DNA of 64,000 nucleotides from assembly GCA_021498125.1 (NCBI GenBank), contig JAIZWL010000006.1, forward strand, positions 62,001 to 126,000, in the 5' to 3' direction. Below the pieces are notes generated by a model that saw nothing but the letters and a program-made list of their open reading frames with translations, had not been told where the DNA came from and searched no databases. Of the stretch, positions 7,019 to 33,809 are shown one piece after another. The translations under genes were made by a program, and so were the position numbers. Numbering within the stretch: position 1 is the stretch's first letter; each line of letters starts with the position of its first letter. This stretch comes from Candidatus Thorarchaeota archaeon. GTDB lineage: Archaea; Asgardarchaeota; Thorarchaeia; Thorarchaeales; Thorarchaeaceae.

Positions 7019-7167
7019 CTATAGTTGGGAGCTGTGTGAAAAGTCTACAGACATAGATCATTCAAGTCAGAATGAATCCCGAAGAGTTTTGGATTCGAAC
7101 AGAAAAAAGTGATCATTTGGTTCACACTCACTATGTTTCCGAATTTTCACACAGAGCCCTATAGTTG
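7019..7167. mobile_element. 131-bp MITE, copy 1, with 9-bp target site duplication
   Basis: The element spans 7028-7158, starts GGAGCTGTGTGAAAA and ends TTTTCACACAGAGCC, so its ends form imperfect terminal inverted repeats of about 15 bp. It is directly flanked by perfect 9-bp repeats CTATAGTTG at 7019-7027 and 7159-7167, the duplicated target. It has no coding capacity. Two further 131-bp copies lie at 28311-28441 and 31508-31638. This copy keeps the first 70 bp well but has diverged in the second half, so it is probably the oldest. It sits just after the histidine kinase stop codon and before the gene at 7240. Confidence 0.88.
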
Positions 7168-27649: not shown

Positions 27650-28210
27650 TCATTCAGTGGTTGAAAACTTGTCCATCTCGAAATTTTCAATGAGTGAGTG
27701 AATCTCTGGTCTACCCAATAGTTTTCTGCGGGTCTCTGTGAGATTATTGATCACACACGCAACACCCACAACTGTTGCCCCGAGCTTTTCAACGATCTTC
27801 TGGACTGCAAGAACTGTTGTACCCTGTGTGATCCAGTCGTCGACGATAATGAGGCGGTCACCCGGATCAACTGATTCGGAAACAAGTGCAAGGCGATGGT
27901 CTGCGAATCTACTAGATGGTAGAAGCTCCACTGGGCGATGATAGTCCTCTGGAAGATACGCTATTGATCTTGCAGGAACGACACCACACCCAAGATAATA
28001 CGCAATAGCACTACCAAGAGCAAGTCCACGTTGTTCAATTCCAATGACCTTGTTAGGTCTCAATTCTACAATGGGTTTTGCTAGTTTGACAACAGCCTCG
28101 TGAAAGACTGTTGGGTCCTCTAGAAGCATACTGATATCACATACGGCCATTCCGGGCTCGGGCCAATCAGGGATTACCTCAACGTAGTTAGCGAAGTTAA
28201 TGTCTGTCAT
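27650..28210 (-). CDS. apt: Adenine/purine phosphoribosyltransferase-like protein
   Basis: Type I phosphoribosyltransferase of 186 residues from the ATG at 28210, which has GGGAGA 8 bp upstream (a start at 28246 is also open). The N-terminus (IPDWPEPGMAVCDISMLLEDP) follows the pattern of adenine phosphoribosyltransferase, and the PRPP-binding loop is LIIVDDWITQGTTVLA, where APRT usually has VDDxxATGGT. The base could be adenine or another purine; the altered loop leaves this open. Salvages free purine base with PRPP in the cytosol. A 131-bp MITE now lies 101 bp upstream of this start, and its 9-bp target lies just in front of the element, so the gene's upstream region has been rebuilt. Confidence 0.78.
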   Translation of the reverse strand: MTDINFANYVEVIPDWPEPGMAVCDISMLLEDPTVFHEAVVKLAKPIVELRPNKVIGIEQRGLALGSAIAYYLGCGVVPARSIAYLPEDYHRPVELLPSSRFADHRLALVSESVDPGDRLIIVDDWITQGTTVLAVQKIVEKLGATVVGVACVINNLTETRRKLLGRPEIHSLIENFEMDKFSTTE

Positions 28211-28301
28211 CTCGTATCTCCCACATTGGACTATTTTGTTTAGCATGATATTTCTTTCTGTCGGATACTTCGTATGATCATTTCATGCTTTTTTAATCTC
28301 C

Positions 28302-28441
28302 GATTTGATGGGAGCTGTGTGAAAAGTCCACAGACATAGATCGTTCAAGTCAGAATGGATCCCGAAACGTTTTGAATTCAATCGCAAAGTGGTGTTCATG
28401 CTTCTCATAATCACTATTTCACTGACTTTTCACACAGCTCC
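28302..28441. mobile_element. 131-bp MITE, copy 2, with split 9-bp target sequence
   Basis: The element spans 28311-28441, begins GGAGCTGTGTGAAAA and ends with the perfect inverse TTTTCACACAGCTCC. It is non-coding. It matches copy 3 (read in reverse complement) at 128 of 131 positions by my count. The 9 bp to its left, GATTTGATG (28302-28310), do not repeat on its right side (GGCTGACAT) but reappear as the reverse complement CATCAAATC next to copy 3 at 31499-31507. This pattern marks the two copies as products of one rearrangement. Confidence 0.88.
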
Positions 28442-28631
28442 GGCTGACATAAGCTTGTACAATTGATTTATGAGGTTGACAGCATAGTAGTGTTGCTAAA
28501 AATTACGGCTGGTAAAATCCTTCTGATGCATCAGATAGCGAACTTAATTGATGAGCTCAGTTCTATAAAACGAAGATTTATCACTGGATGAGAACATCTA
28601 CACCGATAGAATACCATCGAGAAAGAGAGAG
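28442..28631. other. Junction-proximal intergenic DNA after MITE copy 2
   Basis: 190 bp between copy 2 and the gene at 28632, A/T-rich and without an ORF. It forms one end of the presumed inverted segment (28442-31507). Confidence 0.4.
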
Positions 28632-29273
28632 ATGAATAGCACTAATCTTGAGATGGCGTACGAATTCTTCAGCAAGAAAGGATTTGCCGCTGGGGGAATA
28701 CTGACGGTGATAATACTGATATTGCAGTCCCAGTTGGGCTTTCCTTCAATCTGGCAAGACAACCCCGCCGGGTATATGACCTTCGTTATTGTATCGGCCA
28801 TAATTGTTGGGATCGCATCAGGCAGCGTCCTTGTGTATCTTATCCCTCCAGATCAAGATGTCATTGGTGTGGCCGGACTAGGGAGTGATTCAATCTCCCA
28901 ACATATTGCCCTGTTCCTCGTTATTCTTGCCTTGATTCAGCCTGAGTTCTCAGGCTTCGTTCTCTTCTTTGATTATTTCGGCATCGACCCCTTTGCGCCA
29001 TTGTGGGTGTTGCTAGCGTTTGCCGCACCCAGTGCAGGATTTGCCACTGCCATGTATGATAGAATGGGGGCGATTGCTCGTGATCTTCGGGAGTACTTCA
29101 AAGATCATACTCGTCTCGACTTGGTGACACTAGACTGGCTCCATCAATACGGTGCACGGACAGCAATCTATCGAATGGGTATGCTCGAGAGCGCAGCTGC
29201 AAAAATACCGGGCCTCGTTGTCAGAGGTCACATGATCATTCGTGAAACCAAGATGTTTTCTGTCACGGAATAA
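28632..29273 (+). CDS. Four-TM membrane protein, unknown function
   Basis: A 213-residue protein from ATG 28632 behind GAGAGAGAG. Four hydrophobic helices (about residues 18-38, 48-72, 88-112, 120-142) are followed by a cytosolic tail of about 70 residues with a helix rich in aromatic and basic residues (MGAIARDLREYFKDH). The family was not recognised. It lies at the left end of the MITE-bounded segment, on the strand opposite to the two other genes of the segment. If the segment was inverted, its former neighbours were different. Confidence 0.72.
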   Translation: MNSTNLEMAYEFFSKKGFAAGGILTVIILILQSQLGFPSIWQDNPAGYMTFVIVSAIIVGIASGSVLVYLIPPDQDVIGVAGLGSDSISQHIALFLVILALIQPEFSGFVLFFDYFGIDPFAPLWVLLAFAAPSAGFATAMYDRMGAIARDLREYFKDHTRLDLVTLDWLHQYGARTAIYRMGMLESAAAKIPGLVVRGHMIIRETKMFSVTE

Positions 29274-29344
29274 CTCTCAAAAAAAAAAAACAGCATTAAA
29301 ATTATTTATGGGAAATGGGAGAACACACTTGGAAAAGTTCAAAA

Positions 29345-29662
29345 TCAGGTACTATGATGCTTCTTCATATGGACAGCCAGTCCCTCCTCAGTCCATGCGA
29401 CCCACGAACATTTGAGGCAGGTAAAACTTTTGCTACCTAGTCCAAAACGGGGTGGTGACTTAGGTTCGAGTTCATAGATGGTACCACCATAGCCACTGCT
29501 CTTACGTGTGATAACTTTGAAACGCCTTTCAAAACATTCACGGCATAATGATAATTTACGTTGCTCTTCTTGAATAAAATTCTCCTCTAGCGTCTTTGGT
29601 GGCGGACCTTGCACAATTTCTTTCCCACAGCTCTCACAGAAGTCCGGTATCGTTATCACCAA
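29345..29662 (-). CDS. Small zinc protein with a canonical C2H2 finger
   Basis: A 105-residue protein. The N-terminal half has CxxC at Cys9/Cys12 and another CxxC at Cys40/Cys43, which together could hold one zinc. The C-terminus is a textbook C2H2 finger, CX2CX12HX3H, with Cys82, Cys85, His98 and His102; a further His follows. Such classical fingers are frequent in eukaryotes and occur sporadically in archaea. It is likely cytosolic, and nucleic-acid or protein binding is a reasonable inference. A run of 12 A (29279-29290 region) downstream supplies a T-tract terminator on the minus strand. Located inside the MITE-bounded segment, 166 bp downstream of the GTPase-domain gene. Confidence 0.8.
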   Translation of the reverse strand: MVITIPDFCESCGKEIVQGPPPKTLEENFIQEEQRKLSLCRECFERRFKVITRKSSGYGGTIYELEPKSPPRFGLGSKSFTCLKCSWVAWTEEGLAVHMKKHHST

Positions 29663-29828
29663 CGTCCCAATTTGGGTATTGAACAGTGAAATTATTTCTA
29701 CAAACGTAGTATTTGAATCGATTGATTATGGTGTTATACTGGTATAAACTCTATTGTACTACAAAAAATGTAAAAAATACGTGCGCTTTCATTCGGTGCG
29801 AATGTACACTGCAACATAATACAATAGA

Positions 29829-31337
29829 TCAGTGACCTTTCGACATGAGCCAAAGCTTTGCAGCGGTCACAAAGACACTATCAACACCAGCTCCTGAGAG
29901 ACAGGAGGTCTCAACAAAACCAATAGGATGCAACTTGCCCTCCGACCCGAATCTATTTGCAAGTTCCTCGGCAAGTTTGTAGCCCTCGTCTTGACTCACA
30001 GGGGGTTCATCATTATCAACACCAGCAGCACGAAGATCCATCTTGTTTCCAACAAGGATTATCGGAGGAGTGTATCCCAGAGAGTTTGTGGACTCCTTGA
30101 TCCAAAAGTCAACACTCTCAAAAGACCAACGATCAGTAACAGAATAGACGATAATCACAACCCCAGTGTCCTCATAGAACTCTGTCCGACTGACATGCGC
30201 CTTTGCAGCATCGTCGAAACACCAAGACTGCAGATGCACCCTGTGTGTGGCCAGCTCGTATATGTTCTCGTAGATATGAACCTGCTCGACACCATCCAGT
30301 TTAGGATGGCCCATCTTAGCCTTCTCAAGAAGCGATTTTTTCCCGACACCCTCTTCGCCTAAGACGATGACCTTTGCGGTGACAATGGGCTTGATGATAT
30401 GGTCCTTAGTGTCAGCAGCCTTATCAGATGCAGGTACGGTGGCCTCTGAGACTTCGGGCTCCTTAGCCGCTTCAGCACTAGCCTCTTCAACAAGCGTTTC
30501 GGGTTCAACATGGGGTGTCTTGTCCGCTTCGGCTGCATAGGTCTTTTGTGAGGCGCGGAGCTCTTCAGCTCCTGATACACTGATTCGGATTTGCGGACGC
30601 GCGGGTTTGGATGGCTGCTCCTCTGTAGGAGGCACAAAATCATCACTTAGACTCTCAACAGCAGCAAGTGCATCCATAATGTCTGAGAAATCGTTCCCTG
30701 AGAGGAACTTTATTCCAGTCGCATCGATCGCGTCAGTGGTAGTGACCGAGGTGGAGACCGCTTTATCAGGAGGAGGACTGGTAGCCGTTGCGGATTCGGA
30801 TGTAGGCTTCGCGGCCGCCTTTTCGGAAGGTGTCATCTGATCAGTGGAAACACTCTCTTCTTGGACATTTCTATGCTCTGATTTAGATGACGAGGCTGGT
30901 ACCGATTCCCTCGTTGTGGCGGAGGCCGTAGAAGGACTCTGTGTATCAATCTTAGAAGGAACAGGGGTTTCGGATTCTTCAGCCGTAGGTGTAACCTTCT
31001 CAACAGGAGCCGCGGGTTTGGAAGCATCAGACTTTGCTTTCTGCTTGGCCGCACTTTTCGATGGGGGCTTCCGCGTTTCTTCATCCTCATCAGGTGGACC
31101 TACAAGTATTGAGCGGGCACGTGGAACACCAATACGAGTCAATGTTTCTTCTATAATCCCCGGTGCAAGCCGTTTTCCACGTGCTTTAAAGAACACCTCA
31201 AGATCTTTGACCACTTCATCAAAAGAGCGGCTCTTCGCTTTTATCTTCTTGAGTATGATCCCTTTGTCTCGTATCTCTATGTATCCTAATGCGAGTGTGA
31301 CCGCAATAGTTGTTCCGGGGACAATCACAGGAAGCAT
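29829..31337 (-). CDS. Atypical Ras-superfamily GTPase with long N-terminal extension
   Basis: A 502-residue protein. Residues 1-85 form a small alpha/beta domain (TTIAVTLALGYIEIRDKGIIL and a helical part). Residues 90-320 are a low-complexity Ser/Thr/Pro/Ala/Glu linker. Residues 325-500 are a Ras/Rab-like GTPase domain. Its P-loop is GEEGVGKKS: the Ser/Thr that normally follows GK and binds Mg2+ is Lys. The G3 motif DxxG is not present (WCFDDAAKAH aligns with Ras WDTAGQE), so the catalytic Gln is missing. The G4 NKMD (near 430) and a G5-like ETSC remain. No prenylation motif is seen at the C-terminus. It is probably nucleotide-binding but weakly hydrolytic, or a pseudo-GTPase (inference). 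Confidence 0.85.
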   Translation of the reverse strand: MLPVIVPGTTIAVTLALGYIEIRDKGIILKKIKAKSRSFDEVVKDLEVFFKARGKRLAPGIIEETLTRIGVPRARSILVGPPDEDEETRKPPSKSAAKQKAKSDASKPAAPVEKVTPTAEESETPVPSKIDTQSPSTASATTRESVPASSSKSEHRNVQEESVSTDQMTPSEKAAAKPTSESATATSPPPDKAVSTSVTTTDAIDATGIKFLSGNDFSDIMDALAAVESLSDDFVPPTEEQPSKPARPQIRISVSGAEELRASQKTYAAEADKTPHVEPETLVEEASAEAAKEPEVSEATVPASDKAADTKDHIIKPIVTAKVIVLGEEGVGKKSLLEKAKMGHPKLDGVEQVHIYENIYELATHRVHLQSWCFDDAAKAHVSRTEFYEDTGVVIIVYSVTDRWSFESVDFWIKESTNSLGYTPPIILVGNKMDLRAAGVDNDEPPVSQDEGYKLAEELANRFGSEGKLHPIGFVETSCLSGAGVDSVFVTAAKLWLMSKGH

Positions 31338-31498
31338 ATCTCCAAACTGCTGTGGCTTCGTGTCTTGGCGATAGGTAGGGGGGATAGATAACTGTTTTGC
31401 AGGATATTACTGTAAAACCAGATAGCAATGGTGAGACATGTTCACAAACACGGCGGATTGAGAAGTTCCACGATCACAGATCCACAAAAAACGACATA

Positions 31499-31638
31499 CA
31501 TCAAATCGGCTCTGTGTGAAAAGTCAGTGAAATAGTGATTATGAGAAGCATGAACACCATTTTGCGATTGAATTCAAAACGTTTCGGGATCCATTCTGAC
31601 TTGAACGATCTATGTCTGTGGACTTTTCACACAGCTCC
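31499..31638. mobile_element. 131-bp MITE, copy 3, inverted relative to copy 2
   Basis: The element spans 31508-31638 on the plus strand, starting GGCTCTGTGTGAAAAGTC and ending GACTTTTCACACAGCTCC; it is in opposite orientation to copies 1 and 2. It differs from copy 2 at one internal base and at two bases in the terminal repeat. Its left flank CATCAAATC (31499-31507) is the reverse complement of the left flank of copy 2. Its right flank (GCAAGAATG) is unrelated. It lies about 90 bp past the 3' end of the broken radical-SAM gene. Confidence 0.87.
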
Positions 31639-31729
31639 GCAAGAATGACTCCAATTATATCTGGGATCAGGATTTCTTGCATCATCACGATCAATCCAAC
31701 TATCGAATGTACTGGTGCTGAATATACTG

Positions 31730-32551
31730 TTACATCACTCGAAATATGAGTCCTACATAATCTACGTTCCCTGATTTGATTTGCTTCAATATGTAGGCTG
31801 GACGAAAATAGAACTTTAAATATGCTTTATGTAGGAGATGTTTAATGGTTTCTATGGTCATCCCCGGAGGTGACATGACCGCTCCCAATACTGAGAAATC
31901 TTTCCAAGATTTTACTCGAATCCACTTTTCTTGTTTGGCCTGATCATAAAGTGGTGTGCCTGGATATGGTGTACAAATAGTAAACTGTGCTAACTCTGGG
32001 TCCAATCTACATGCAAGATCAATAGTTTCATTTGCTTCTAATTCTGTTTCGGTAGGATATCCAACCATGAAGGAGAGAACCAGTTCTAATCCAGCTTTCT
32101 TTGCGATTTCCACTGCCTGATTGACCTGTTCAATTGTTATGCCCTTCTTCATAGCATTCAATACTCGTTGGCTTCCAGATTCCACTCCCATATACAGTGT
32201 ATGACACCCAGCTGAATGCAGCCACTCGGCTATCTCAGGATGACGCGATAGGATATTGGCTCTTGTAGAACAAGTCCATCCAATCTTGAAACCTTCCTCC
32301 CTGAATTCTTTGCATATTGCACGGACCCTTTTAGTGTCAAATGTGAAAAGATCATCAATGAACTCAATTTCTCTCACACCATACTTGTTTTCAAGGAGCT
32401 TGACCTCACGAATAACATTTTCTGGAGACCTACCTCTCCATCTCTTACCTGTAATCCTGGAAGATGAACAGAAAGTACAGCTATATGGACACCTTGAGAA
32501 AAATAGATCCCATCCAACACGACAAACATTTTTTTTCTGATTCTCCCGCCA
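31730..32551 (-). pseudogene. Radical SAM protein, 5'-truncated remnant
   Basis: The frame has the radical SAM cluster motif CPYSCTFC (32468-32491, minus strand) followed by typical core segments: VREIEFIDDLFTFDTKRV, TCSTRANIL, GCHTLYMGVESGSQRVLNAMKKGI, LSFMVGYPTET and a C-terminal FRPAYILK. This is the catalytic core of the B12-binding radical SAM (BchE/MiaB-like) group. Upstream the frame ends at TAA 32552-32554 without any ATG, GTG or TTG before the cluster motif, and the expected N-terminal cobalamin-binding domain is missing. An A8 tract at 32529-32536 could be a frameshift site, but the neighbouring frames also show no recognisable N-terminal domain. The first in-frame GTG lies after the cluster motif and would give a dead protein. 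Confidence 0.7.
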
Positions 32552-33098
32552 TTAAATCGAGCGACCGCAGCAGGACAGATGTTCCATCACTGCTTGATTT
32601 CGAAGTAAACCAGTTAGTTGCATATCTGAACAATCGGTTCTTGGACAGGGATTCCAAAGCTGCGACTTGATTTTCCTCAGAACTTTGAAGAGTTGTTAGA
32701 TTCTCCGTATCGCTTCCGTGAAACCTGAGATTATTTTTTTTCTTTTCTCTCTCATTCGTTTTTGTCAAGCGGCCTTTGCTGTTTATGGATAATGATTCAT
32801 AGAGATATTTAAATCAGTCGATATATCTATGCATATTTTTTTCTATTATAGATTCAGCTTATTGCTTTTCAAGTAACTATTTTTGATTATATTTGGTATG
32901 CACAAAGAATTCAAATATAGAGTTATCTCGAATAACAAATAATTTATTGGAAACATTTATGATGGCCAAAGAAATAAAAAATTAAGTCATGAATCTGTGA
33001 TTTATACTTGCAATGGTGCGTTTTCTACAACAGGATTATGTCAGCCGAATAGTTTATCTATAAACTTGTAATGTTAAACAAGACCGACATTTGGTTAG
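32552..33098. other. A/T-rich region before the ABC/FtsX operon
   Basis: 547 bp. The part up to about 32770 is the decayed upstream region of the radical-SAM remnant. From 32770 to 33098 the DNA is very A/T-rich with several TATA-like tracts (for example near 32810 and 32935) and should hold the operon promoter. No RNA gene or repeat was seen. Confidence 0.4.
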
Positions 33099-33809
33099 GT
33101 GGAGAGATTGAATTCAGACGCTATTGTCGATTTACATTCTATTTCGCGAGTGTATCGAATGGGGCTGGTGGAAGTCCATGCTCTTCGTGGTATTGATATG
33201 CAGATAAAGCGCGGCGAGCGGATTGCGATCATGGGTCCTAGTGGCTCCGGCAAGACCACTTGCCTCAATATCATTGGTGCTCTTGATAAACCGACTTCTG
33301 GAACTGTTTACATTGATGGAATCGACATCACCCAAAAGAGCGAAAAGGAACTGACAAAGATTCGTCGGGATAAGATCAGTTTTATCTTTCAGTTTTTCAA
33401 TCTCCTTCCCGTCCTAACTGCATTTGAGAATGTAGAGATCCCCCTATTGATTGCTGGCGTTGATGAGGCTGAACGAAAAGAGGAAGTCGAACGCCTGCTT
33501 GAACTTGTTGGGTTGAGCGATCGGGCCACTCATCACCCCGATGAATTATCAGGCGGCGAACAGCAACGAGTTGCTATTGCACGGGCTCTCGCCAAGCCTC
33601 CCGGTTCGACAAGCTCGATTATCATTCTTGCAGATGAGCCGACTGGCGATCTTGATACGAGCACTGGCGAAGAGGTCATGGACGTTCTTCTCAAGAGCAC
33701 TCAGAAAGAGAATAGCACACTCATAGTTGTCACGCATGATGCGGATGTTGGTGCAAAGTTGGATCGGATCTTGACAATGCGTGATGGTCTGATCGTGAGC
33801 GATTCGTGA
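33099..33809 (+). CDS. ABC transporter ATPase (LolD/MacB type)
   Basis: A 236-residue ATPase of the group that pairs with FtsX-like permeases. The start is GTG 33099, or TTG 33108. Walker A is GPSGSGKTT, the Q-loop is IFQFFNLLP, the signature is [15 protein letters not shown], Walker B is [13 protein letters not shown], and the H-loop is VVTHDADVG. It drives mechanotransmission by the two large permeases encoded downstream. The next gene starts 2 bp after its stop, so it is the first gene of a four-gene operon. Cargo could be lipids, lipoproteins or peptides at the cell surface; none can be chosen from sequence. Confidence 0.92.

Follow-up and report, generated by a model that had tools for sequence, protein, structure and literature searches.

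How did a transposable element too small to hold a transposase gene come to stand, in two inverted copies, at both ends of a flipped block of genes? The question is raised by a 64-kb window (the whole stretch of DNA analyzed here, G000:C6:62001-126000) from a Candidatus Thorarchaeota archaeon whose genome assembly comprises 3.1 Mb in 14 contigs. The window carries a multicopy miniature inverted-repeat transposable element (MITE) of 131 bp with 18-bp terminal inverted repeats (TIRs). Two of its copies, copies 2 and 3, lie in opposite orientation around genes for a membrane protein (TM), a zinc-finger-like protein (ZF), and a Ras-like GTPase; a preliminary description of this DNA reported a match at 128 of 131 positions, and our own measurement gave the same value.

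A derived inversion with breakpoints at two MITEs

The segment between both MITEs (28442-31507) is a derived inversion, and its breakpoints lie at the MITEs. In the window, the genes follow each other as adenine phosphoribosyltransferase-like gene (APRT)(-), TM(+), ZF(-), GTPase(-), a decayed radical-SAM gene(-), and an ABC ATPase gene (ABC)(+), while relatives show APRT(-), then GTPase(+), ZF(+), and TM(-). The neighborhood was compared with 8 relatives and 29 further loci, the genomes overlapping partly between the two sets, and gene orientation was recounted over 30 loci (the 29 plus L072). The arrangement opposite to that of the window was found for GTPase in 29/29, ZF in 27/27, and TM in 26/26 loci, the respective gene not being shown in 1, 3, and 4 loci. 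The flipped block thus occurs in the window alone among the loci compared, with a MITE at each breakpoint, and since every relative showing the genes has them in the opposite orientation, the inversion arose on the lineage of the window. The inverted segment proposed in the preliminary description is therefore borne out by the comparison with relatives, and the contrary outcome that it had named, an ancestral orientation of the segment, did not arise.

The same breakpoints carry a 9-bp target duplication that has been split (T0 in Table 1). Taken in element orientation, the left flank of copy 2 and the right flank of copy 3 (GATTTGATG and CATCAAATC) form an exact inverse match, and the 9-mer has no further occurrence in the window, where shuffled sequences lead one to expect 1.3. 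Neither copy has a direct duplication of its own, as already described, and both joints of T0 are formed by canonical left and right element ends. The length agrees with that of the family, in which 22 of 39 elements, copy 1 included (CTATAGTTG), have a perfect 9-bp duplication. In an all-against-all test of the flanks of 109 TIR-like ends from the whole genome, four exact split-duplication partners outside a single element were observed, the copy 2/copy 3 pair among them, against 0.02 expected (5,886 pairs x 4^-9, assuming uniform bases); coincidences with one mismatch, four of the partner kind and two of the same-flank kind, were counted as chance background.

Table 1. Features of the inverted locus and of related units; coordinates without a contig name are window positions
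Feature	Position	Strand	Remarks
MITE copy 1	7028..7158	+	ordinary insertion, 9-bp duplication CTATAGTTG
APRT	27650..28246	-	fixed left neighbor
T0, left half	28302..28310	+	GATTTGATG; outer half of the split 9-bp duplication
MITE copy 2	28311..28441	+	left part assigned to insertion E1; aberrant right terminus CACAGCTCC
Inverted segment	28442..31507	-	between both MITEs; flipped versus every relative showing the genes
S, inverted half	28442..28450	-	GGCTGACAT, reverse complement of ATGTCAGCC; inner flank of copy 2
TM	28632..29273	+	membrane protein, no Pfam family; ancestrally in opposite orientation
ZF	29345..29662	-	zinc-finger-like protein
GTPase	29829..31337	-	Ras-like, long N-terminal part; ancestrally divergent from APRT
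T0, right half	31499..31507	-	CATCAAATC; inverted
MITE copy 3	31508..31638	-	canonical ends; outer left-type end assigned to insertion E2
Remainder of presumed 1.53-kb older insertion	31639..33037
Radical-SAM gene	31730..~32500	-	N-terminally truncated, decayed
S, direct half	33038..33046	+	ATGTCAGCC; 52 bp before ABC
ABC	33099..33809	+	ABC ATPase, fixed right neighbor; adjoins TM in most relatives
4.77-kb unit (L112)	C2:162164-166936		outer duplication TTGCATATC, exact; ABC exporter and AsnC-type regulator
22.0-kb unit (L110, L111)	C1:855807-877831		outer duplication GTAGGTCTC, exact; bounded by a 178-bp insertion sequence remnant and a 132-bp MITE

In the same genus, TM was found in only one of three genomes (G002), where the TM-ABC area is rearranged and an FtsX-like gene lies ~30 kb off. 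In the APRT-to-TM locus of that genome (L066, G002:C6), APRT and GTPase stand ~3.9 kb apart, and ZF is separated from TM by ~2 kb; these wide gaps suggest that the neighborhood was disturbed more than once within the genus.

How the inverted copies were joined

The preliminary description held that the other two flanks of the pair do not match, and on that ground considered recombination between two older copies the less likely origin. This premise does not hold, because the inner flank of copy 2 has an exact partner, ATGTCAGCC, 1.4 kb past copy 3 and in the orientation predicted. It was sought toward ABC because the element of copy 3 might form the end of a larger insertion. The 9-mer occurs twice in the window, where shuffles lead one to expect 0.71 occurrences, and ~0.008 when a single strand of the 1.46 kb in question is considered. 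Most likely, the ATGTCAGCC pair is the 9-bp duplication left by an older insertion of 1.53 kb, made up of the second MITE and the decayed radical-SAM gene. Removing 1,530 bp and one 9-mer in silico leaves a TM-ABC gap of 242 bp; in relatives, this gap measures 150 to 296 bp in 17 of 21 loci, the outliers being 630, 1,717, 1,797, and 3,036 bp. The DNA so removed occurs once in the genome, and the radical-SAM fragment had no match at the loci of the eight relatives tested. Moreover, even unmatched flanks would not have spoken against recombination, since a replicative inversion starting from a donor with an intact duplication also leaves two matching flank pairs, so that a missing match weighs equally against both models.

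We propose an account in three steps, to which we give about an even chance. First, the 1.53-kb unit, consisting of a MITE (E2) and 1.4 kb with the radical-SAM fragment, would have entered between the divergent TM and ABC genes, duplicating ATGTCAGCC. A sister MITE in the opposite orientation (E1) would then have landed between APRT and GTPase, likewise divergent genes, and have duplicated GATTTGATG. Finally, these near-identical inverted MITEs, ~3 kb apart, may have exchanged strands through homologous recombination or an equivalent strand switch, which would flip TM-ZF-GTPase, split the GATTTGATG pair, and separate the ATGTCAGCC pair. The four 9-mers are exact, and the exchange itself would be the joining step. 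When the segment is turned back, the own duplication of E1 (GATTTGATG) is recovered, and that of E2 is recovered only as part of the 1.53-kb unit (ATGTCAGCC at 33038).

The right ends of the two copies bear on this exchange. Copy 2 ends on the right with the left-type terminus CACAGCTCC where the family has CACAGAGCC, a feature missed in the preliminary description; its last 18 bp (28424-28441) are the exact complement of its own left end, which is atypical for the family. The simplest account of this CTCC end, and a probable one, is that template switching corrected the imperfect inverted repeat. The right ends of copies 2 and 3 are consequently unlike (CTCC versus AGCC), and positions 79, 128, and 129 distinguish the copies; comparison among 12 young copies places these changes on copy 2. 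That all differences fall within positions 79 to 129 is expected if the exchange took place in the identical left part and the right parts kept their separate histories. That the right ends are unlike and that all differences gather in the right half mildly favors an exchange between two elements.

Several observations weigh against the three-step account. Copies 2 and 3 share the bases 65A, 70A, 90G, and 99A, which were found in none of 10 other young copies, and a tree of 30 copies groups the two as sisters (support 0.76). Both the sisterhood and the shared bases are what one replicative event would be expected to leave, while recombination needs local transposition or gene conversion in addition. 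At 33037, the right end of the 1.53-kb unit has no significant TIR, since 1,107 of 12,000 background positions score equally, and the unit would thus be one-ended, with a recognizable element end on a single side of its cargo. An exact complement of GCAAGAATG lies at 33623-33631, within ABC; we take it as chance, and it indicates that exact 9-mers do occur nearby by chance. Lastly, no nucleotide-level empty site was obtained for the window locus, as the intergenic DNA of the relatives is not alignable.

Somewhat less probable in our judgment, the orders of likelihood given here being judged and not computed, is a one-step intramolecular replicative transposition in inversion mode, in which E2, as the terminal MITE of the 1.53-kb unit, would have attacked GATTTGATG. 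The new joints (left of copy 2, right of copy 3) would then carry GATTTGATG and the old joints would keep the flanks of E2, which never matched each other because E2 is one end of a larger unit. IS903-like elements behave replicatively, and one such event would cover the sisterhood, closeness, and orientation of the copies together with the single split duplication; both T0 joints have the canonical left and right ends that it calls for, and with the flank partner at 33038 it does not require a donor that lost its duplication. The right ends, however, would copy one donor end and yet read CTCC and AGCC, which calls for a further event in copy 2. Replicative inversion should also recur, whereas a single signature remains among the 109 ends once the MITEs at C1:990384 and C1:1333446 are explained, and the sole full-length copy found of the related insertion sequence (IS) has a broken transposase frame. 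A split target in inverse orientation is present at the new joints, as replicative inversion demands, but it is equally expected from recombination: both routes yield the same four joints, and a single split duplication therefore does not decide between them. Thus, of the transposition-made inversion put forward in the preliminary description, the inversion and its position at the MITEs stand; its replicative mode is possible, and recombination fits too.

An improbable alternative is that the inversion was produced by the assembly, or that two orientations coexist and the assembly shows one of them, since inverted repeats of 131 bp allow both ways of joining. The copies differ at just three positions, contigs of this assembly can end in repeats (an IS fragment sits at the end of contig C7), and a local inverted pair is harder to assemble than distant copies. 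On the other hand, the longest contig observed reaches 1.55 Mb, and identical copies on different contigs (L003/L004 and L006/L008) all keep matching duplications, which suggests that the assembly usually reads through the 131-bp repeats correctly. Two unrelated MITE insertions with chance-agreeing flanks, the inversion having another cause, are very improbable: shuffling leads one to expect ~1.3 occurrences of a 9-mer like GATTTGATG in 64 kb, but here the match falls exactly at both element borders, is as long as the duplication typical of the family, is expected 0.02 times among all ends, and concerns the MITEs at both breakpoints of an inversion established independently through gene order.

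Three further candidates were rejected. A replicative inversion in which E1 was the donor and the target lay on the TM/ABC side fails in this simple form, since the inner flank of copy 2 and the outer flank of copy 3 are not complementary 9-mers. A TIR-to-TIR exchange with E2 oriented like E1, considered for the CTCC end, would leave the body of copy 3 facing the other way. The pair at C1:990384 and C1:1333446 is not a second inversion, the flank in common belonging to a duplicated segment of ~1.25 kb with 83% identity. At that pair (C1:990384-990515 and C1:1333446-1333577), the MITEs stand beside inverted duplicates of this segment and differ in their orientation relative to it. Elsewhere, inverted MITE neighbors 1.35 kb (C5) and 3.16 kb (C2) apart have their own duplications intact or with one mismatch; inverted pairs thus arise in this genome without inversion.

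The MITE family and the larger units it bounds

With copy 2 as the query, 32 matches were obtained in its own genome, 30 of which were retained as loci, and a census of facing ends 100 to 200 bp apart gave 39 MITE elements. Besides the 22 perfect 9-bp duplications, 3 elements have one mismatch, 2 have two, and 12 have at least three. The family ends are asymmetric, with GGAGCTGTGTGAAAAGTC on the left and GGCTCTGTGTGAAAAGTC (reverse complement) on the right. The MITE was found in 0 of 19 relatives' genomes searched, its own genome excluded. A related element of 1,012 bp (C1:1490102-1491113) has the same 18-bp TIRs with identical cores and encodes DDE transposase fragments (Pfam DDE_Tnp_1) in a broken frame; it is the one full-length IS copy found in the genome, along with several partial ones. 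Beside it, a ~0.6-kb stretch is repeated at a 1,270-bp offset (L031:57-646 and 1327-1916; G000:C1 ~1488056 and ~1489326).

We take the MITE family to resemble the IS903 group of the IS5 family. The TIRs shared with the 1,012-bp relative, the 9-bp duplications of the MITEs, and a match of the transposase fragment to the IS5 profile NF033579 (E 8.6e-17) are in line with this, whereas the frame is broken, the match reaches 61.5 bits under a curated cut-off of 140, and placement in the IS903 group is tentative. "IS5-type" would therefore denote likeness only, judged from a single fragment of a broken gene.

Of the four exact outside partners, one is the copy 2/copy 3 pair, one belongs to the duplicated segment, and two bound the units of 4.77 and 22.0 kb, each of which has element ends on both sides, an outer 9-bp duplication, and an empty site in a relative. 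The 4.77-kb unit sits between the M50 and S6e genes and ends on the right in an older MITE that has a second MITE nested inside. M50 and S6e are adjacent and divergent in 27 of the 29 relatives' loci, with no M50 match in the other two. When the two flanks are joined, the resulting site can be aligned through the junction with L164 of the same genus, which shows the 9-mer there. The cargo of the 22.0-kb unit matches Cmr1 (two genes), Cas10, Cmr3, Cmr4, Cmr6, a CARF protein, a DrmC-like protein, and an MkoA-like helicase; a simple repeat test detected no CRISPR array in it (no 20-mer recurring at 50- to 90-bp spacing). Of the genes around it, the FeS gene is found beside INO1 in 21 of the 29 relatives' loci and OB in 5, and 4 of the 29 loci hold an INO1 paralogue; the flank-joined site aligns across the junction in L134 of the same genus. 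Altogether, the MITE family appears to have carried larger gene blocks around the genome, one of them with type III-B CRISPR-Cas genes. The combined proposition, in which a MITE without a transposase made the window inversion replicatively from the terminal MITE of a one-ended 1.53-kb unit and the same family moves transposase-less composite units including the 22-kb type III-B block, is a tentative one that we regard as rather doubtful.

At C1:1357263-1360351 (L113), two old MITEs in the same orientation lie 2.8 kb apart and lack duplications of their own; their outer flanks, TATGACTCG and CATGACTCA, agree at seven of nine positions, and this may be a decayed composite unit.

Relation to known systems and meaning

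Inversions between inverted IS copies occur by homologous recombination or by intramolecular transposition. The window resembles them in its inverted copies at both breakpoints and in its split target duplication, and differs in the element, here a MITE of 131 bp, and in one of the partners, which ends a presumed larger insertion. The window inversion is real, derived, and an ordinary rearrangement of a known kind; a replicative mechanism is possible but unproven.

Prokaryotic MITEs serve as recombination sites and play a role in rearrangement, according to the parts of PMC10969869 used here. The present family agrees with the elements treated there in being short, noncoding, and present in many copies, in sharing TIRs with an IS, in its duplication of fixed length, and in having copies that may act as recombination sites; it differs in its host, a Thorarchaeon. 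In those same parts, the archaea named are Sulfolobus, Halobacterium, Haloquadratum, a Desulfurococcus, and several others, with no Asgard archaeon among them. Composite units bounded by MITEs have been described in bacteria as TIME-COMP (sections of PMC4133298 and PMC13367494). Like these, the 4.77-kb and 22-kb units have two non-autonomous elements flanking a cargo and outer 9-bp duplications; unlike the Tn3-derived TIME-COMP of those sections, they are IS5-type in the sense given above, archaeal, and in one case carry type III-B CRISPR-Cas genes. In the open-licence literature, we found no report of MITE-bounded composite units in Asgard archaea and no paper on Thorarchaeota insertion sequences, transposases, or mobile genetic elements.

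Our study provides a polarized example of gene order altered by a MITE in a Thorarchaeon: one can see both breakpoints, the duplication that was split between them, and the order that is ancestral. Two signatures that are often confused are also kept apart, since a single split duplication cannot tell replicative inversion from recombination. Beyond the window, the ends of the same family bounding units of 4.8 and 22 kb, with empty sites in the same genus, suggest that non-autonomous elements can move defense genes in these archaea.

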